Origin: Deltaproteobacteria bacterium RBG_13_61_14
Lineage (GTDB): Bacteria > RBG-13-61-14
Length of the DNA: 10,728 nt
NCBI GenBank assembly: GCA_001797815.1
Contig: MGQK01000114.1
Coordinates: forward strand, 5,652 to 16,379
Direction: 5' to 3'
This document shows positions 2,293 to 10,728 of this stretch, piece by piece. A program made the translations under genes and the position numbers. How positions within the stretch are numbered: the stretch's first letter is position 1; every line of letters begins with the position of its first letter. The notes beneath the pieces were generated by a model that searched no databases, was not told the DNA's origin, and saw only the letters and a program-made list of their open reading frames with translations.

Positions 2293-2321
2293 TTGACTGG
2301 CTCAAAACGATGCGCTACAGT
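2293..2321 (+). promoter_or_regulatory. Putative promoter of the exported unknown protein gene
   Basis: TTGACT (2293-2298), a 17-nt spacer, then TACAGT (2316-2321): 5 of 6 and 4 of 6 consensus matches. The predicted transcription start near 2328 lies downstream of the ATG at 2310. This supports the ATG at 2394, which directly precedes a signal peptide, as the true start. Consensus match only. Confidence 0.35.
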
Positions 2322-2393
2322 TTGGCCCAGGGGGGCTCCCTTTTGCGCGCTCAACCGGGCTATTGTTTAGTTGCGCATCACCAGGCCATTCTG

Positions 2394-3722
2394 ATGAAAC
2401 CCGGAAGAAGTCATTTCTTGGCGGCAATCCTGATCCTGGGATTGGTTCTGCCGTCCCCTTTCCAGGCGGAGATCAAAACTATCCAGAGGGTGGACGATCC
2501 GGTGGTGATGGAAAGCAGGGTCTTGACCGCCCTGCTCAAAAGTCCCCTTGACCGCCTGGCCTTGGTGGCCCGAACCGGCGAGGTCTGGGCCCCGATCCCC
2601 TTCCAGATTGACGAGAAAAAGCCCGACGGCAGTTACGCCTTTACTTTTGGTCCCCTGGCGGGCCCGGACCCGGACCCCACCCTTGACGCCAACGATGAAC
2701 TGGTGTTCATGGTCAAGGACACCGGCGACCGGGTGGAGGACCAGAAGTGGCCCGAGGCCGCGGAAGCGGTCATGGAGATCGAGGTCCGCGATCCCAAGAA
2801 CGGGCAGAAGGGCTGGGCTTACCTGGTCCGCTTCTCCGGCCCGGCGCCTCGCTCCCAGGATGATTACATCCAGGTCGAGACCGACCCGGCCTCTAACTAC
2901 CGCAAGATCATCACCTACGAGTATGTCATGGGCGGCCCCTCGAATGTCATCTACCCGGACTATATGGCGGCCCGGGAATTGCCGAACGGCCGGCCCGGGG
3001 TGGACGTGTTGGACCGTCTGAAAATGCGGGGAGAATTCGTCTTGCCCATGGGACTTTCCATTCCCTTGATCTTCGATGAGATGGCCAAGTCCAAAGACAA
3101 GGGCTTGATTGACGGCCCGGTCCGGGTGCTGCTTCTGGCCGAGGGTTACCTGGAGTTGGCCAAATTCATCAAGATCAAGGGCGAGGGCTATTCGCTGATT
3201 TCCTACTATGTCAACCACATGATCTGGCCCATGGCGATGGAGTTGCCCATGGCCCGCTTGCTCAAGATTGAAAACTTTTACGGATACCTGGACTTTAACC
3301 AGAATGTCTTTGGCTCCTGCAGCTTCAGCGCGGCCAACCCCTATAATAAGGACGTGGTCTTTGATGGGCACATGAGCGAGGCGGAAAAGAAACTCGATAC
3401 CGAGACGAACATAGACTGGAACGCCGGCTTCGGGCCGCAGGGCGCGATTATTCACCGATTGTATTTTGACCCCAGACCAGCGGTGAGCAAGCAGCTCCAT
3501 TATTTTATTGACGACGCGACCATCCAGGATCCGCCCGAGGACTTCCCGGGAGTCTTCGGCGCCGGCTATCACCTGGTGTTCCCCGAAGAGTTGCTGCCTC
3601 AATCCACGGTTTACCAATACTACTACTTCCTGAGTCGTCTTCGACCCGAAGAAGTCTCCCGCATTCTCGACATCCTCGATCATCCGGTGGAGGTCCGGGT
3701 CAAGGCCAGGGTTGGCCCTTAA
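2394..3722 (+). CDS. Exported protein of unknown function (442 aa)
   Basis: I do not recognise a family with certainty. The start at 2394 is chosen because it opens a textbook Sec signal peptide: basic MKPGR, hydrophobic core LAAILILGLVLP, small residues and a likely cut after FQA (about residue 25). The longer frame from 2310 would put 28 unrelated residues in front of it and would begin inside the putative promoter. The mature part (about 417 aa) starts with a region containing PFQIDE (69-74) and DANDELVFMVKDTGDR (98-113), and looks rich in beta strands. It is acidic and aromatic-rich, with Tyr clusters (ITYEYVMG, YQYYYFLSR). It has a single Cys (309) and no CxxCH haem motif or transmembrane helix. 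It is therefore probably a soluble periplasmic or surface protein, perhaps binding a ligand. The Shine-Dalgarno is weak. Its position beside an acyl-CoA synthetase and a periplasmic dehydrogenase fits a role in handling an external substrate, but this is speculation. Confidence 0.82.
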   Translation: MKPGRSHFLAAILILGLVLPSPFQAEIKTIQRVDDPVVMESRVLTALLKSPLDRLALVARTGEVWAPIPFQIDEKKPDGSYAFTFGPLAGPDPDPTLDANDELVFMVKDTGDRVEDQKWPEAAEAVMEIEVRDPKNGQKGWAYLVRFSGPAPRSQDDYIQVETDPASNYRKIITYEYVMGGPSNVIYPDYMAARELPNGRPGVDVLDRLKMRGEFVLPMGLSIPLIFDEMAKSKDKGLIDGPVRVLLLAEGYLELAKFIKIKGEGYSLISYYVNHMIWPMAMELPMARLLKIENFYGYLDFNQNVFGSCSFSAANPYNKDVVFDGHMSEAEKKLDTETNIDWNAGFGPQGAIIHRLYFDPRPAVSKQLHYFIDDATIQDPPEDFPGVFGAGYHLVFPEELLPQSTVYQYYYFLSRLRPEEVSRILDILDHPVEVRVKARVGP

Positions 3723-4352: not shown

Positions 4353-4910
4353 GTGACCGTCACGAGAAGAACATTTATCCGATGGACCTCGTTGAGCCTG
4401 GGGGCGCTGGTAGGTCCCTGGAGCATCGCCGGAAGAAAAGGTTATGCCGCCACCAAGGATTCGCCGGAGTTAGAGTTCCTCACGCCTTCGGAATATCGTT
4501 ACCTCAACAAGCTGGCCCGCGAGGTCATCCCCGACGAGCCGGTCCTTTCCGGAGAGGTGGATGTGGCCAAGAACATTGATCGGTTCTTTGCTCAAACCAA
4601 CACCGCTCCGGATTTCCTGATCATGCTCCGGTTCCTGCGCCTCATCCGGCTGGCAGACCCGGTTTTCCCCCTCCTGCAAAGAATCTCGCCCCTGCTTGCC
4701 GAAGACGTCATCAGCTTCCAGCGCACCATCTGCTTCCTGGGCTATTACAGCGATGCCAACGGGGAGGCGGATCTGCCGGCCGAGAAGCGAGTGGTCTGGC
4801 CCCGGCTCGGATACGATGGGCCCAAGGGTGAAGACTGGTTCCCGCCGGACAAGGAAGTTCAGCTCGACCGCTCGATCCTGAAGGACCGGGTTCAGGAGGA
4901 AGGGGCATGA
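4353..4910 (+). CDS. Tat-exported small subunit of a GMC dehydrogenase (gluconate 2-dehydrogenase subunit 3-like)
   Basis: Begins with a GTG codon. The N-terminus carries a twin-arginine motif, TRRTFIR (residues 4-10), a modest hydrophobic stretch (SLSLGALVGPW) and a likely cleavage near GYA-A (32), so the protein should leave the cytoplasm folded via Tat. The mature part starts with FLTPSEYRYLNKLAREVIP, typical of the gluconate 2-dehydrogenase subunit 3 family, and ends with FLGYYSDA...VWPRLGYDGP (129-156), also family-like. At 185 aa it has the usual size. The gene overlaps the next one by 4 bp (ATGA at 4907-4910), implying translational coupling and a complex. In characterised FAD-dependent sugar dehydrogenases the analogous gamma subunit supplies the Tat signal for a catalytic subunit that has none, and the same arrangement is seen here. 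Family assignment is by motif recognition, not alignment. Confidence 0.83.
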   Translation: MTVTRRTFIRWTSLSLGALVGPWSIAGRKGYAATKDSPELEFLTPSEYRYLNKLAREVIPDEPVLSGEVDVAKNIDRFFAQTNTAPDFLIMLRFLRLIRLADPVFPLLQRISPLLAEDVISFQRTICFLGYYSDANGEADLPAEKRVVWPRLGYDGPKGEDWFPPDKEVQLDRSILKDRVQEEGA

Positions 4911-6598
4911 TTATCAGCTACCAGGATTTGGCGGCCGGCAAGACGGTAGGCCCGGTGGATGTGTGTATCATCGGCTCGGGCGCGGGCGGCTCGACCATGG
5001 CCTTTTACCTGGCCCAGGCCGGGTATTCCGTGGTGGTGCTGGAAAAGGGCGGCTATTTTCCGTCCGAGGAACTGGGCCGCAAAGAGGTCGCCTTGCTTAC
5101 CCGGACCCAGGCCATGACCATCTTCACCCCCACCACCGGCGAGCATACCCGGGTCTCTCTGATTGCGGGCGAGTGTTACGGCGGAGGCACCCTGGCCGCG
5201 GAGGGCGCGGCGTTTGACTTCCCGGACGTGATCAAGGACGACTGGGAAAAGCTGGGGCTGAAATCATTCAGCCGCTCGAACCCAAAGCTTGACACCTGGA
5301 TGGACGAGCTCAACCAATTGCTTTCGGTCAAGCCCATGGCCTGGGAATTCCAAAACCGCAACAACCAGCTCCTGGCCATTGCCGCGGAGCGGGAGGGGTT
5401 GCCCTGGGAGCCTTCGCGCCGGGCGGTGACGTATTGCATGCGCTGCGGCAATTGCACCCAGGGCTGCCGCTACGGGGTGAAGCAGGATTCCGCGGTCACT
5501 TTCCTGGCCTGGTCTCATGAATACCAGACGCAAATTTTTGTGGGGGCCAAGGCGGAAAAAATCCAGATCCATTACGCCGGACCCGAGGACCAGGAATACC
5601 GGGAGCGACTGCAAAAGGCGCGGGGCGCGGCGGCGGAAGATCTCCGGAGGGAGTTGGAACAGCGGGCGAAACCATTCCCGGCCAAATTCACCGTCACCGC
5701 CGGCGTCACCGACCGCAAGGCCCCGCCTCCCCGCAACCGGCCGGCGGAGAGCAAGACCCTGACCGTCCACGCCCGCCAGCTCGTGCTCGCGGCCGGGCCG
5801 CTCGGGAGCTCGCGCCTGCTGATGAAGAGCGGGATCAACCCCCACCGGGTGGTGGGCAAGCGTTTTACCACCCATCCCTCGGCCTTCACCCTCGCCCGCT
5901 TTCCCAAGAAGGTGCTGCTCCGGGGCTGGGACGGGATGTTATGCTCCATGGAAATTCATCATTTCGGGGACCATAACCGCGACCAGTCTTATTATCAGCC
6001 GGAGCGACACGGCTTTTTAATCGAGGCGGCGCTGTCCCTGCCCTGGGGCATGGCCAACATGACCCCCGGCGTCGGCCGGGAACACCTGGACCGGATGCAG
6101 CACCTGAACTATTTCGGCGGGTGCGAGATGATCACCAAAAGCGACGCCTCTGGCGAGATCACCCCGGAAGAAATCAAGTTCGAAATGTCGGAGACGGACA
6201 ATGAGCGGATGCTCTTTGGCAGCTGGATCATGTCCCGGCTCATGTTCCGGGTGGGGGCGCAGGAGGTTTTTACCGGGCTGCCCGGCTTGATCCTCAAGTC
6301 TCCCACTCAACTCGATGAAATCTACAAATATCGGCGCGGAAAGAAAAAAGGGTTCCTGCTCAAGCAGGCCAACCTCTATTCCGGCCACATCTTCGGCGGG
6401 TGTATCATGGGCAAGGACCCCCGGCAATCCTTCGCCGACGAGACCGGAGAATGCCACGAGATCAAGGGCCTCTGGGTGGCGGACGGCTCCGCCTTCCCGA
6501 CCAACACCGGAGTCAATTGCCTGATGTCCATCACCCTGGTGGCCCGCAAGATTGCCGATGACTTTATCCAAAAGACGCAAAGCTCTCCCCCCCAATAA
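4907..6598 (+). CDS. GMC-family FAD oxidoreductase with a CxxCxxCxxxC cluster
   Basis: Catalytic flavoprotein of 563 aa, probably an alcohol, sugar or hydroxy-compound dehydrogenase. Seen: the FAD-binding Rossmann motif VDVCIIGSGAGGS (17-29) with Glu46 ending the second strand; AAGPLGSSRLL (295-305); and the GMC C-terminal signature with GHIFGGCIMG (492-501) and GLWVADGSAFPTNTGVN (521-537). His493 and Asn537 match the usual catalytic His plus His/Asn pair. Cysteines at 177, 180, 183 and 187 (CMRCGNCTQGC) have the spacing of a 4Fe-4S site and could pass electrons out of the flavin. A charged, helix-forming insertion with a proline-rich end (about 224-283) separates the FAD-domain strands. There is no signal peptide, so the partner subunit encoded just upstream probably carries it out via Tat. 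No cytochrome subunit follows, so the electron acceptor is unknown. AGGAGG at 4894-4899 precedes the ATG. Confidence 0.92.
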   Translation: MIISYQDLAAGKTVGPVDVCIIGSGAGGSTMAFYLAQAGYSVVVLEKGGYFPSEELGRKEVALLTRTQAMTIFTPTTGEHTRVSLIAGECYGGGTLAAEGAAFDFPDVIKDDWEKLGLKSFSRSNPKLDTWMDELNQLLSVKPMAWEFQNRNNQLLAIAAEREGLPWEPSRRAVTYCMRCGNCTQGCRYGVKQDSAVTFLAWSHEYQTQIFVGAKAEKIQIHYAGPEDQEYRERLQKARGAAAEDLRRELEQRAKPFPAKFTVTAGVTDRKAPPPRNRPAESKTLTVHARQLVLAAGPLGSSRLLMKSGINPHRVVGKRFTTHPSAFTLARFPKKVLLRGWDGMLCSMEIHHFGDHNRDQSYYQPERHGFLIEAALSLPWGMANMTPGVGREHLDRMQHLNYFGGCEMITKSDASGEITPEEIKFEMSETDNERMLFGSWIMSRLMFRVGAQEVFTGLPGLILKSPTQLDEIYKYRRGKKKGFLLKQANLYSGHIFGGCIMGKDPRQSFADETGECHEIKGLWVADGSAFPTNTGVNCLMSITLVARKIADDFIQKTQSSPPQ

Positions 6599-6654: not shown

Positions 6655-7677
6655 TTAGACCCGGTATTTTTCGCGCAGGCGCAGCGAGAACTGCTGGATG
6701 GCGGCGAAGGCTCGCTCCACGGTCCGCTCCCGGTCCGGGTTGACCAGGCAGCAGGTGGCCGGGGAGAGGAGGCTCTGGGCGAGGAGGAGTTCGCGGTCAA
6801 TTCCCTGGTCTTGCAGGATAGACCAGACCTGCTCCAGTCGCTCTTCCAAGGAGGCCAGGTCCTCTTTTTCAAACGGCTCGAAGTTGGTGGGCACGATGCC
6901 CCAGACCAGGACTCCGCCGCGGTCCAGGAACTTCCTGATCGAGCGGGCATAGGTGGCGAAGACCTCGGCGTTGGTGTAGATGTCGAGCGAGAGGATGTCG
7001 AGGTCGAGACCGAGGAGGAAGTCCCAGTCCGGGTTGCCGCAGAGGTGCACGCCCCGGGGCCGCGCGACCGCGGCGAAGAACCGCTCCAGGTCTTGGCGGG
7101 CGGCCTGGTCGTTGTAACCCGACATCGCGCTCCACAAGAACTGCAGGCCCGGCTCGTCCACGAACATGAAGGCGTTGGAGTTCATTCTCTTGAGACGGCG
7201 GAGCTGGACGTTCAGCCGCTTGGCCAGGAATTCATACATGAAAGGCCGGACCGTGTCGTCGAACAGGATGGGCCGCCGGTTCTGGTCGAGCACGTTGAAG
7301 CCGAAGCTGATCGGGCCTTCGAGCTGGCCCCGGATCGCGGGCCGGTCGGAGAGGTCGAGCGCCAGGAAGCGGTGATAGACCGAGGAATAGGCCGGGCTGA
7401 TGTCGAAATAGTCCGGCTCCTCAAAATGGGCCAGGGTCTCTTCCACCTCGGCGATGAATTTATCCAGCGAAAAACTCAAGCGCCGGTTCGCCAGGTCGAG
7501 CACGATCCCGGGGAAATGCTCGGACGCCTGCACGAACATGTCCTCATGGTAATCGGAGAGCGGGAGCTGGGGCCAAAAGGGCACATCCAGCGAGAGCGCG
7601 GTCGCGAGCGCCCGGTCCACCTCAATATGGGGCATCACCGCCATGGCGGTGGTCAAAAGGTTTCCAGGAATCGGCAT
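6655..7677 (-). CDS. Stand-alone MetE-like (cobalamin-independent methionine synthase C-terminal domain) protein
   Basis: About 340 aa, corresponding only to the catalytic half of MetE; the N-terminal barrel is absent. Residues (from the 7677 start): PGNLLTTAM near the N-terminus, FVDEPGL (172-178, like DEPAL of MetE), HLCGN (211-215) giving a His and a Cys zinc ligand, SLDIY (230-234) where MetE has its Glu ligand, and SPATCC (305-310) giving the last Cys. It probably binds zinc and transfers a methyl or other one-carbon group to or from a thiol, but substrate and donor are unknown. Homologues often begin near PGNLLTTAM, so I prefer the ATG at 7677. A longer start at 7722 would lie practically at the predicted transcription start of the upstream -10 box. 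Neither start has a clear Shine-Dalgarno. The gene is convergent with the dehydrogenase and divergent from the thiolase operon. Confidence 0.82.
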   Translation of the reverse strand: MPIPGNLLTTAMAVMPHIEVDRALATALSLDVPFWPQLPLSDYHEDMFVQASEHFPGIVLDLANRRLSFSLDKFIAEVEETLAHFEEPDYFDISPAYSSVYHRFLALDLSDRPAIRGQLEGPISFGFNVLDQNRRPILFDDTVRPFMYEFLAKRLNVQLRRLKRMNSNAFMFVDEPGLQFLWSAMSGYNDQAARQDLERFFAAVARPRGVHLCGNPDWDFLLGLDLDILSLDIYTNAEVFATYARSIRKFLDRGGVLVWGIVPTNFEPFEKEDLASLEERLEQVWSILQDQGIDRELLLAQSLLSPATCCLVNPDRERTVERAFAAIQQFSLRLREKYRV

Positions 7678-7727
7678 GATCAAGTCCCCGGAGAAATCCG
7701 GTCCGGCGGGACCTTTCCTCATTATTA

Positions 7728-7829: not shown

Positions 7830-7945
7830 TTTTTTTGGCTTTGTGGTTTGGTAGCCATCGTTGATCGGCACCATCGCTCGAGCGGCAAGCGGTCTCAGAA
7901 GTTCCATAGACACCATCGGTTTAATTTAATCAGAAGGAGGTAGAG

Positions 7946-9094
7946 ATGTTGAGAAGGGTGGCAATTGTTGGGTACGCCCAATCCCGCCATCAATACGACA
8001 TGCTCAAGACCCGGGAGGACATGGTGTTCGAGGTCTGCAAGGCGGCGTTGGCTCACGCCGGCATCTTGCGGGAAGACATCGGCACCGTGGTCACGGCCTC
8101 CACCGACTACCTGGATGGCCGGACCATCTCCAACGTGTTCTTGAGTATGGCGGTGGGCGCGTACCTGAAGGACGAGTCGAAGGTGGAGGAGGACGGGGCG
8201 ATGGCGCTCCAGTATGCGATGATGCGCATCATGTCCGGCGCGCATGACGTCGCCCTGGTCGAGGCGCATACCCAGGCCTCCACCTTCAATCCCCACCAGG
8301 TTTCCTATTACACCCTGGACCCGCTCTTTGACCGGCAGATCGGCCTGCTCAACGACGTGGCGGCCGCGGCCCTGCAAGCCAGGATGTATATGGACCGCTC
8401 CGGCGCGCGGGAAGAGTGCCTGGCCGCGGTCTCGGTCAAGAACCTGCGCAACGCGGCCTTTAACCCGAACGCGCACCGGCGGATGGCGGACCTGAGCCTG
8501 GAAGAGGTGCTTGCCTCCAAGCTCTACTACGACCCGATCCGGGAGCTCACCATGTCGCCGATCAGTGACGGCGCCGCGGCCGTGATCCTGGCCAGCGAGG
8601 AGCGGGCGCGGGAGATCACCGACTGCCCGGTCTGGATCGAGGGCGTGGGCCTCTGCTCCGACGCGTATCTGCGTGACCGGAGGCTCGACCGGCTCGATTC
8701 CTTGCGGATCGCCGCGCAAAAGGCCTACCAGATGGCGGGCATCCAGGACCCGCTCCAGGAGCTCGACCTGGCCGAAGTGACCGAGCGCTACGCCCACGAG
8801 GAGTTGATGATCTACGAGGCGCTGGGGCTCTGCCGCGAAGGCAAGGGTAAGGTCCTGATCGAGAACGGCACCACCGCCTTCGACGGCGAGTTCCCGGTCA
8901 ACCCCAGCGGCGGCGCCCTGGGGGCCGACCCCATCTGCGCGACCGGGCTGATCCGGGTGATCGAGGCGGCCCAGCAGATCCGGGGCGAGGCCAACGGCTG
9001 CCAGGTCTCCGGCGCCGGCCGGGCCCTGGCCCACGGCCAGTTCGGGATCTGCGCGCAAAAGAACGTCGTGCTGATCCTGGGAGGTGAGTCATGA
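7946..9094 (+). CDS. Thiolase-like protein 1 (SCP2-thiolase type), lacking the nucleophilic Cys
   Basis: Thiolase-fold protein of 382 aa with a very strong Shine-Dalgarno (AGAAGGAGGT, 7932-7941). It keeps the family landmarks: VAIVGYAQS at the start, MRIMSGAHDVALVEAH (93-108), SPISDGAAAVILAS (204-217), LDLAEVTERYAHEEL (273-287), VNPSGGALG (318-326) and ALAHGQFG (360-367). Where true thiolases have their acyl-accepting Cys in CxSG, this protein has EEDG (Glu81 by my hand alignment). Where they have HPxGATG, it has DPICATG (Asp328). Classical thiolysis through an acyl-Cys is therefore unlikely. It is the first gene of an operon and overlaps the next by 4 bp. It probably pairs with the second thiolase-like protein and DUF35 in one complex acting on an acyl-CoA. 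Retro-aldol, aldol or condensation chemistry is possible, and a purely structural role is the main alternative. Confidence 0.88.
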   Translation: MLRRVAIVGYAQSRHQYDMLKTREDMVFEVCKAALAHAGILREDIGTVVTASTDYLDGRTISNVFLSMAVGAYLKDESKVEEDGAMALQYAMMRIMSGAHDVALVEAHTQASTFNPHQVSYYTLDPLFDRQIGLLNDVAAAALQARMYMDRSGAREECLAAVSVKNLRNAAFNPNAHRRMADLSLEEVLASKLYYDPIRELTMSPISDGAAAVILASEERAREITDCPVWIEGVGLCSDAYLRDRRLDRLDSLRIAAQKAYQMAGIQDPLQELDLAEVTERYAHEELMIYEALGLCREGKGKVLIENGTTAFDGEFPVNPSGGALGADPICATGLIRVIEAAQQIRGEANGCQVSGAGRALAHGQFGICAQKNVVLILGGES

Positions 9095-10338
9095 TCATCC
9101 GCAATGCCGCAATTATCGGATGTGGACAGACCAAACATTCCTCCAAACGGAGGGAGGTCAACGTGGCGGAACTGGTGGCCGAAGCCGCCTTCCGCGCCAT
9201 TGAGGACGCCGAGCTGACCCCCAAAGAGATTGACGCCCTGGTGGTCGGCAACATGCAGGGCTTCGGCGGAGTGGCCCAGCCCGAGCTCTGGCTGGGCGAT
9301 TGGATCGGAGGCGAGGGCAAGCCGGTGCTGCGCATCACCACCGGCGGCACCACCGGCGGCTCGGTCGGCCAGGGCGCTTATTACTCCGTGGCCTCGGGCA
9401 TGTATGACGTGGTCCTGGCCGTGGCCTGGGAGAAACACTCGGACAGCAAGGAAGCCGGCGCCACCACCGGCCTGATGCACGTGGCTCTGGGCAACTTCTT
9501 CCACGCCCTCAACTACGGGATCGGGCTCAAGACCCTGCTCGCCACCCAGGCGGTCGGCGCCGCGGCCGGGGCCGCGGTTTACCAGGCCCGCTTCTACCTG
9601 CACCGCTCCGGCTGCTCGATCGAGCACCTGGACATGGTGGCGGCCAAGGACCGGCGCAACGCGGCCAAGAACCCCTACGCGCATTTGCAGATCCCCAACT
9701 GCACGCCAGCGGACATCGCCAAGACCGAGATGATCGCCTGGCCCTTCCGCTACGGCCACGTCTGCCCGGCCAGCGACGGCGCTTCCGCCATCGTGGTGGC
9801 GAGCGAGAAGATTGCCAAGAAAAAGTGCAAGCAGCCGGCCTGGATCAAAGGGGTCGGGTCCTTCTCCGACGAAGAGAACCAGATGCAAAGCGAAAACATG
9901 GGCGGCATCGGCGTGCTCGACGCCTCCGAGCAGATGGGCGCCCGGCTCTCGGCCCAGAAAGCCTACAAGATGGCCGGCATTACCGACCCGAAAAAGGAAA
10001 TTGACCTGGCCGAGATCTACCAGCCCTTCCCCAGCCAGGAACTGCTCTTCGCCGAGAAGCTCGGGCTCTACGATGAAGGTGAGGCCTGGAAGGGGCTGGA
10101 AAAGGGCGAGACCGACATCAACGGCCGCATTCCCTGCGACCTGTCCGGCGGGGTGAACGCCACCAACGCCATCGGGTCCTCGGCCTTGCAGCGGATCCTC
10201 GAATGCGCGCTCCAGATCCAGGGCAAGGCCGGCGAGCACCAGGCGGCCAAGAAAGTTCACAATGCCGTGGCCCACGGCTGGGGCGGGGTTACCAACTACA
10301 TCACCGTCACCGTGCTCGGTGATACTCCCAGGGGGTGA
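9091..10338 (+). CDS. Thiolase-like protein 2 (SCP2-thiolase / lipid-transfer type), lacking the nucleophilic Cys
   Basis: Paralogue of the preceding gene (415 aa), starting at the ATGA overlap with GGGAGGTGAG just upstream (9079-9088). Typical segments: AAIIGCGQTKHS (6-17), VASGMYDVVLAVAWEK (100-115), PASDGASAIVVASEK (226-240), IDLAEIYQPFPSQEL (304-318), LSGGVNATNAIG (351-362), AVAHGWGG (392-399). The usual Cys is replaced in TTGGTTGG (Gly86 by hand alignment) and the HPxG His by Asn359. This pattern recalls SCP2-thiolase-like proteins such as Ltp2, a DUF35-dependent aldolase that also lacks the Cys and uses tyrosines. Tyr310 in LAEIYQPF may be a comparable residue, but I have not aligned it. 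The DUF35 gene starts 4 nt after the stop, which supports a three-protein complex. Confidence 0.88.
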   Translation: MIIRNAAIIGCGQTKHSSKRREVNVAELVAEAAFRAIEDAELTPKEIDALVVGNMQGFGGVAQPELWLGDWIGGEGKPVLRITTGGTTGGSVGQGAYYSVASGMYDVVLAVAWEKHSDSKEAGATTGLMHVALGNFFHALNYGIGLKTLLATQAVGAAAGAAVYQARFYLHRSGCSIEHLDMVAAKDRRNAAKNPYAHLQIPNCTPADIAKTEMIAWPFRYGHVCPASDGASAIVVASEKIAKKKCKQPAWIKGVGSFSDEENQMQSENMGGIGVLDASEQMGARLSAQKAYKMAGITDPKKEIDLAEIYQPFPSQELLFAEKLGLYDEGEAWKGLEKGETDINGRIPCDLSGGVNATNAIGSSALQRILECALQIQGKAGEHQAAKKVHNAVAHGWGGVTNYITVTVLGDTPRG

Positions 10339-10342
10339 GAAC

Positions 10343-10728
10343 ATGGCGGAGAAAAGCAAACCGGTCATGACCATGGCCGTGGAAGGGACCTGGAACGTGG
10401 GGGCTTACCATTACAAGGCGCCCCGCCTGACCGAGGAGTTCGTGCAGGGCCTCAAGGAGAAGAAGCTCGTGGGCACACTCTGCCGGGGCTGCGGCAAGGT
10501 GATCGTGCCGCCCCGCAACATCTGCGGCCGCTGCCACCGCCGGATGGACGGCCGGCGGGTGGTGAGCAACGTCGGCACCATCACCTGTTTCGTGTGCAGC
10601 GCGCCCATGATCAAGGGAAAGGTGAAAATTTTCGGCATGGACCCCGTGGACATGGGATTGGTCAAGGAGGGCGAGGTGGTGATCCCGGTGTTCGTCAAGT
10701 TCGACGGCTCCGATTCCAACGTGCATAC
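10343..10728 (+). CDS. DUF35 zinc-ribbon/OB-fold acyl-CoA-associated protein (partial, cut by the window end)
   Basis: Reads open through the right edge, with 128 residues visible. A helical N-terminal part (to about 40) leads to a rubredoxin-like zinc ribbon with Cys47, Cys50, Cys61 and Cys64 (CRGC...CGRC). An OB-fold follows, beginning NVGTITCFVCSAP (76-88) and continuing through GLVKEGEVVIPVFVKFDG. This is the standard DUF35 layout. GGGGGTG (10331-10337), overlapping the stop of the preceding gene, serves as Shine-Dalgarno. DUF35 proteins are partners of thiolase-fold enzymes (ChsH2 with Ltp2, BbsA with BbsB, and archaeal thiolase/HMG-CoA synthase), where they help bind the CoA substrate or bridge subunits. 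Here the partner should be one or both of the two thiolase-like proteins directly upstream. Confidence 0.9.
   Translation, partial: MAEKSKPVMTMAVEGTWNVGAYHYKAPRLTEEFVQGLKEKKLVGTLCRGCGKVIVPPRNICGRCHRRMDGRRVVSNVGTITCFVCSAPMIKGKVKIFGMDPVDMGLVKEGEVVIPVFVKFDGSDSNVH

Follow-up and report, generated by a model that had tools for sequence, protein, structure and literature searches.

In actinobacteria, Ltp3 and Ltp4 are known to act as a lyase on sterol side chains. They form a heteromeric aldol-lyase that splits C24-branched sterols between C24 and C25 once C28 has been carboxylated and hydration has taken place; acetyl- or propionyl-CoA is released, and the carboxylate that is left needs re-activation (PMC6678751). 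In the passages of PMC6593523 and PMC4761994 that concern them, both proteins are termed aldol lyases, with reference to Wilbrink et al. 2012. Evidence for the activity comes from gene studies in Rhodococcus (PMC6678751, PMC6593523), and the literature that we found rests on genetics. Here, we analyze a related gene set in a stretch of 10,728 nucleotides, called "the window" below, of Deltaproteobacteria bacterium RBG_13_61_14 (contig MGQK01000114.1; C114:5652-16379), a member of an anaerobic-type lineage with a 4.7 Mb genome. The set, which we refer to as the cassette, encodes two thiolase-fold proteins, T1 and T2 (also named P1 and P2), and two DUF35 proteins, DUF35a and DUF35b.

Other complexes that combine thiolase-fold and DUF35 proteins are also relevant. 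In the aldolase Ltp2-ChsH2 (6ok1) and the bile-acid aldolase Sal-Shy (9myr), a thiolase-fold protein lacking the nucleophilic Cys has a DUF35 partner (ChsH2 and Shy, respectively). Sal has a Gly at the Cys position, Tyr294 of TcLtp2 and Tyr302 of CtSal are the proven catalytic Tyr residues (the catalytic base), and the proton donor is Tyr344 in Ltp2 and Cys304 in Sal (PMC12329534). Structure 6esq is an archaeal multi-enzyme complex in which DUF35 bridges an acetoacetyl-CoA thiolase and a 3-hydroxy-3-methylglutaryl-CoA (HMG-CoA) synthase. Benzoylsuccinyl-CoA thiolase BbsAB (7pxp), an enzyme of an anaerobic pathway, also pairs a thiolase-fold subunit with a DUF35 partner. In contrast to the cassette, BbsAB has one thiolase paralogue, which retains the Cys and both His residues, and the 6esq thiolase retains Cys84, His283 and His335.

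We consider it probable that T1, T2, DUF35a and DUF35b together make up a single heteromeric acyl-CoA aldol-lyase of the type known from Ltp3-Ltp4, in which T2 would catalyze a Tyr-based retro-aldol cleavage and T1 would be a non-catalytic partner. A first-pass annotation of the window had proposed an undescribed complex. However, genetic work has already described the same gene set (Ltp3, Ltp4 and a double DUF35) in actinobacteria, as stated in passages of PMC6678751 and of PMC6593523, the latter citing Wilbrink et al. 2012. The system of the window is a divergent new member of this kind.

Results

T1 and T2 have a thiolase fold but lack the thiolase nucleophile

AlphaFold models of the single chains are clear thiolase folds, with a mean predicted local distance difference test (pLDDT) score of 83.9 and a predicted template modelling (pTM) score of 0.88 for T1, and of 80.1 and 0.86 for T2. 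The best fold match of both models is 6esq (Z 53.9 for T1 and 50.5 for T2); the values are 46.3 and 43.5 for Sal, and 45.5 and 44.6 for Ltp2. Together with the Pfam domains listed in Table 1, these matches bear out the earlier statement that the fold landmarks are intact. The fold is thus the one common to thiolases (acetyl-CoA acyltransferases; Z > 50), but the nucleophilic Cys and the GHxxG His of these enzymes are missing in both proteins.

Residue columns were defined by alignment with the Cys-thiolases 6esq and 7yvy, to which Ltp2, Sal and BbsB were then added. Neither T1 nor T2 has a Cys at the nucleophile column or a His at the GHxxG column. The loss of the acyl-carrying Cys and of the His of the HPxGxTG motif, both claimed in the first-pass annotation, therefore holds for both proteins, and the residues named for T2 (Gly86, Asn359) and for the T1 His column (Asp328) are the ones that we find. 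The assignment of T1 Glu81 to the Cys position is less certain. The nucleophile loop of T1 is three residues shorter than that of Cys-thiolases, so that its Cys equivalent is ambiguous, and Glu81 or Gly84 beside Asp83 are equally defensible. The acidic residue at Asp83 is conserved among T1 proteins (Asp in 72 and Glu in 8 of 81).

The proteins would still be thiolases if another Cys acted as the nucleophile, but this is very unlikely. T1 Cys331 and Cys369 sit in loops that bear catalytic residues in thiolases, yet they are present in only 29 and 47 of 79 sequences, respectively. T2 Cys225 is kept in 76 of the 79, but it lies within a CPxSDG stretch in which Ltp2 and the Cys-thiolase BbsB also carry a Cys, and it is therefore not at a nucleophile position. 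No conserved Cys at a plausible position was found in T1 or T2 among the 79 sequences.

T2 carries an invariant signature that includes the Tyr of known aldolases

T2 Tyr310 aligns exactly with Tyr294 of TcLtp2 and Tyr302 of CtSal. This Tyr was absent from the first-pass annotation, whose analogy with Ltp2-ChsH2 nevertheless holds up. The Tyr motif of T2 is YQPF, whereas the corresponding Ltp2/Sal motif is YDxF (YDHF in Ltp2), and the column of T2 Asn359 holds Tyr344 in TcLtp2 and Gln352 in CtSal. Ltp2 and Sal differ from the proposed heteromer also in that each forms a homodimer, of a single thiolase paralogue in the case of Ltp2.

Across 81 T1-T2 pairs, Gly86, Tyr310, Asn359 and Gly398 of T2 are without exception. 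Because the mean identity of these T2 proteins is 43%, chance is excluded as the reason for the invariance of Gly86, Tyr310 and Asn359. In the T1 proteins of the same pairs, the Tyr column holds Ser, Tyr, Phe, Asn, His, Thr and others, and the Asn column holds Asn, His, Asp and others. From its Tyr and its invariant signature, T2 is likely to be the catalytic subunit, and T1 is probably a non-catalytic partner. Two arrangements had been offered for the paralogues in the first-pass annotation: the residue pattern supports a heteromer with one catalytic and one structural subunit, but not two half-sites, because neither the Tyr nor the Asn that is conserved in T2 is retained in T1.

Another explanation is that T1 and T2 have both lost catalysis and that the cassette serves as a carrier or scaffold, passing acyl-CoA or lipids on to other enzymes as their substrates. 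Neither protein retains the canonical thiolase residues, and several cassettes contain SCP2 domains fused to DUF35, as might befit such a role. However, four invariant T2 residues across two domains of life would be unexpected in a dead enzyme, and Ltp3 and Ltp4 are reported to be essential for one specific cleavage. We therefore regard a pure scaffold as improbable.

T1 and T2 group with Ltp4 and Ltp3

In a careful tree, T1 groups with Ltp4 (100/99) and T2 with Ltp3 (99/91). The superclade that they form (100/99) stands apart from the Ltp2/Sal clade (100/100) and from the Cys-thiolases. A quick tree with 92 rows leaves one pair, L139, outside both the T1 and the T2 clade. As in the window, Ltp3-Ltp4 consists of two adjacent Cys-less thiolase paralogues with two DUF35 domains; Ltp3 has the Gly/Tyr/Asn of T2, and Ltp4 the shortened nucleophile loop of T1.

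The references were plasmid-borne pairs of Tsukamurella and Streptomyces, which exceed the NF005924 and NF006180 (PRK08313) cut-offs. In line with the gene order, we take these models to represent the Ltp4 and the Ltp3 family, respectively. The plasmid pairs follow a protein that has two DUF35 OB domains (two OB_ChsH2_C stretches; L159 and L160). The window system differs from them in that its identity to the plasmid Ltp3-type matches is only about 37-39%, and in that its DUF35 proteins are encoded by separate genes, whereas they are fused in actinobacteria. The host genome gave no match near the cut-off for the NCBIfam 3-oxosteroid 1-dehydrogenase and has no recognizable 3-ketosteroid dehydrogenase, so that a sterol substrate is not indicated.

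T1 and T2 are co-inherited in bacteria and archaea

Genome contigs were scanned with T2 as the only query, and T1 and DUF35 were then looked for nearby. The scan yielded 80 loci, from Archaeoglobus, Lokiarchaeota, Jordarchaeia, Dehalococcoidia, actinobacteria, acidobacteria, Syntrophaceae, Spirochaetes and others. T1 adjoins T2 in 86 of the 95 T2 genes examined, and in 70 of these 86 there are exactly two nearby DUF35 domains, in the order DUF35-T1-T2-DUF35 (37) or T1-T2-DUF35-DUF35 (33). When the two DUF35 domains were tested for forming two clades, the best split separated 41 of the 70 cassettes, with weak support. The distance matrices of T1 and T2 correlate with r = 0.884 over the 81 pairs (maximum of 2000 permutations, 0.089), and the two proteins co-diversify.

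The host genome contains complete or partial cassettes, some of them single members, on C114, C92, C62, C17, C104 and C83, which suggests several parallel lyases for different substrates. The C62 cassette has a fused double DUF35. Desulfatibacillum alkenivorans also carries a cassette (L107).

Gene layout of the window

As first described, the genes are tightly coupled: the open reading frames (ORFs) of T1 and T2 share 4 bp (ATGA), and a gap of 4 nt separates T2 from the first DUF35 ORF (Table 1). A single DUF35 had been assigned to both paralogues, which proved incorrect. When the contig was read downstream of position 10728, the first DUF35 gene was found to end at L040:501, and a second one, missed in the first-pass annotation, starts after 13 nt, just outside the window. 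Eight codons of the first DUF35 gene are masked in the stored data. Neither a promoter nor a terminator was called upstream of T1, and the window has no Rfam match.

Table 1. Positions of cassette features and active-site codons (window coordinates unless stated; aa, amino acids).
Feature	Position	Strand	Basis
Shine-Dalgarno-like AAGGAGG, upstream of T1 start	7934..7940	+	read directly from sequence
T1, Ltp4-like Cys-less thiolase-fold protein, 382 aa	7946..9094	+	Pfam Thiolase_N + Thiolase_C_1
T1 Asp83-Gly84, shortened nucleophile loop KVEEDG	8192..8197	+	alignments
T1 Thr279, column of the invariant Tyr of T2	8780..8782	+	alignments
T1 Asp328, GHxxG His column	8927..8929	+	alignments
T2, Ltp3-like Cys-less thiolase-fold protein, 415 aa	9091..10338	+	Pfam Thiolase_N + Thiolase_C_1; NF006180
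T2 Gly86, nucleophilic Cys column; invariant in 81/81 pairs	9346..9348	+	alignments
T2 Tyr310, at the His of the SCP2-thiolase HDxF motif; invariant in 81/81 pairs	10018..10020	+	alignments
T2 Asn359, GHxxG His column; invariant in 81/81 pairs	10165..10167	+	alignments
First DUF35 gene, zinc ribbon CxxC...CxxC + OB fold	10343..10728, on to equivalent of 10849	+	Pfam zf-ChsH2
Second DUF35 gene, outside the window	L040:515-991 (window-equivalent 10863-11339)		Pfam zf-ChsH2 + OB_ChsH2_C

Beyond the second DUF35 gene lie unrelated-looking genes, followed by ORFs that, as judged by eye, resemble hydrogenase subunits. Upstream, the window contains genes for an acyl-CoA ligase (349-2202) and a GMC oxidoreductase (4907-6598), whose co-transcription with the cassette is not evident. 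The GMC oxidoreductase is distantly like cholesterol oxidase (67/850 bits), and a GMC gene is also present near L073, a close relative of the window cassette. In the region 4353-6598, a 185-aa protein with a twin-arginine-like signal and no family match overlaps the GMC oxidoreductase gene. Two further ORFs, 6655-7722 (minus strand, 355 aa) and 2310-3722 (plus strand, 470 aa), have no Pfam or NCBIfam match at E 0.001.

Beta-keto acid cleavage enzymes near the cassettes

Neighbouring genes were counted by their Pfam identities in 84 loci (968 kb). A beta-keto acid cleavage enzyme (BKACE) was found in 19 loci, and in ten it is fused to DUF35; the counts were 24 for acyl-CoA ligase, 22 for acyl-CoA dehydrogenase, 17 for enoyl-CoA hydratase, 13 for CoA-transferase and 12 for MaoC. 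Measured against the two BKACE genes in the 4.7 Mb of the host genome, BKACE is markedly over-represented in these loci (19 in 968 kb), although the ten fusions are interrelated. A literature search turned up no paper that links BKACE with DUF35. A BKACE or a CoA-transferase would be expected if the lyase left a beta-keto acid, and the frequent neighbouring or DUF35-fused BKACE suggests products of this type.

The BKACE-DUF35 fusions lie beside the T1-T2 pair in L130, L131, L132, L133, L134, L136, L138, L140, L141 and L145; a Syntrophaceae cassette is among those with such a fusion. Some of these cassettes have SCP2 sterol-carrier domains on their other DUF35. MaoC hydratase domains, which we had expected in long DUF35 fusions as in ChsH2 and Shy, were not what these contained: those tested carry SCP2 or BKACE. 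Near some cassettes there is a second type of Cys-less, thiolase-like protein associated with DUF35 (L083:2378-3610, L086:11033-12289, L088:676-2097 and L142:9165-10493), which has Gly at the nucleophilic Cys and keeps both His residues (HDAF/HDAY; GHxxG or MHxxG).

The neighbouring genes also bear on the direction of the reaction. The enzyme might instead run as a condensation, in which an acyl-CoA enolate adds to a ketone, an aldehyde or a beta-keto acid and yields a branched beta-hydroxyacyl-CoA; ketone activation and the assimilation of an intermediate would be examples of such a use. Aldol reactions are reversible, genes for CoA-transferases and acyl-CoA ligases adjoin some cassettes, and 6esq, the top fold match, works synthetically. 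We nevertheless consider this direction unlikely, since the Cys-less, Tyr-bearing relatives Ltp2, Sal and, on genetic evidence, Ltp3-Ltp4 are catabolic lyases, and since the acyl-CoA dehydrogenases and hydratases nearby fit degradation.

Discussion

A mechanism can be proposed for the aldol-lyase that we favour. T1 and T2 would form a heterodimer of the thiolase type, each bearing a DUF35 that helps to shape the acyl-CoA pocket. Because the nucleophilic Cys of T2 is replaced by Gly, no acyl-enzyme can form. Instead, Tyr310 of T2 would take the proton of the beta-hydroxyl group, after which the Calpha-Cbeta bond would break to give a ketone or beta-keto acid and the enolate of a short acyl-CoA. 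This enolate would be stabilized and protonated, most likely with the help of Asn359. T1, without a conserved catalytic set, would complete the dimer. The substrate is most likely a branched or tertiary beta-hydroxyacyl-CoA, which cannot be oxidized for normal thiolysis.

Several points weigh against this assignment. The models are of single chains and cannot show a heteromer, and the correlation between T1 and T2 distances partly reflects the common descent of linked genes. T2 does not have the proton donors of the known aldolases, with Asn359 in place of Ltp2 Tyr344 and Pro312 in place of Sal Cys304. No hydratase gene is present within or adjoining the window cassette. With 467 bits, T2 stays below the NF006180 cut-off of 514, the threshold of the Ltp3 family, and T1 reaches 213.5 bits against the NF005924 cut-off of 419, so that the window pair is not filed as Ltp3 and Ltp4 themselves. 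Finally, we found no report in the literature of an activity measured with purified protein for a member of the T1/T2 superclade.

For the family as a whole, we tentatively raise a more specific possibility, which we hold to be less probable than the aldol-lyase assignment itself. The T1-T2-DUF35 cassettes may constitute a broad bacterial and archaeal family that resembles HMG-CoA lyase in function but is built on a thiolase fold. Its members would split 3-hydroxy-3-(carboxyalkyl)acyl-CoAs into a beta-keto acid and an acyl-CoA, and BKACE, sometimes fused to DUF35, or a CoA-transferase would then consume the beta-keto acid. The best match in a search for HMG-CoA lyase scored 228 bits, with a family cut-off of 246.

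To what was known of Ltp3-Ltp4, our analysis adds the second DUF35 gene of the window, the Tyr and the invariant signature of T2, a wide distribution and a link with BKACE. The T1-T2 family also cautions against taking thiolase annotations in anaerobes at face value, as such genes can encode lyases. The relatives of Ltp3-Ltp4 are an old family; its members occur in Archaea, Chloroflexota, delta-proteobacterial lineages and others, and genomes hold several copies. Its signature, Gly/Tyr/Asn invariant in one subunit only and accompanied by two DUF35 domains, makes the enzymology testable: which subunit catalyzes, where the second proton comes from, and whether the products are beta-keto acids.

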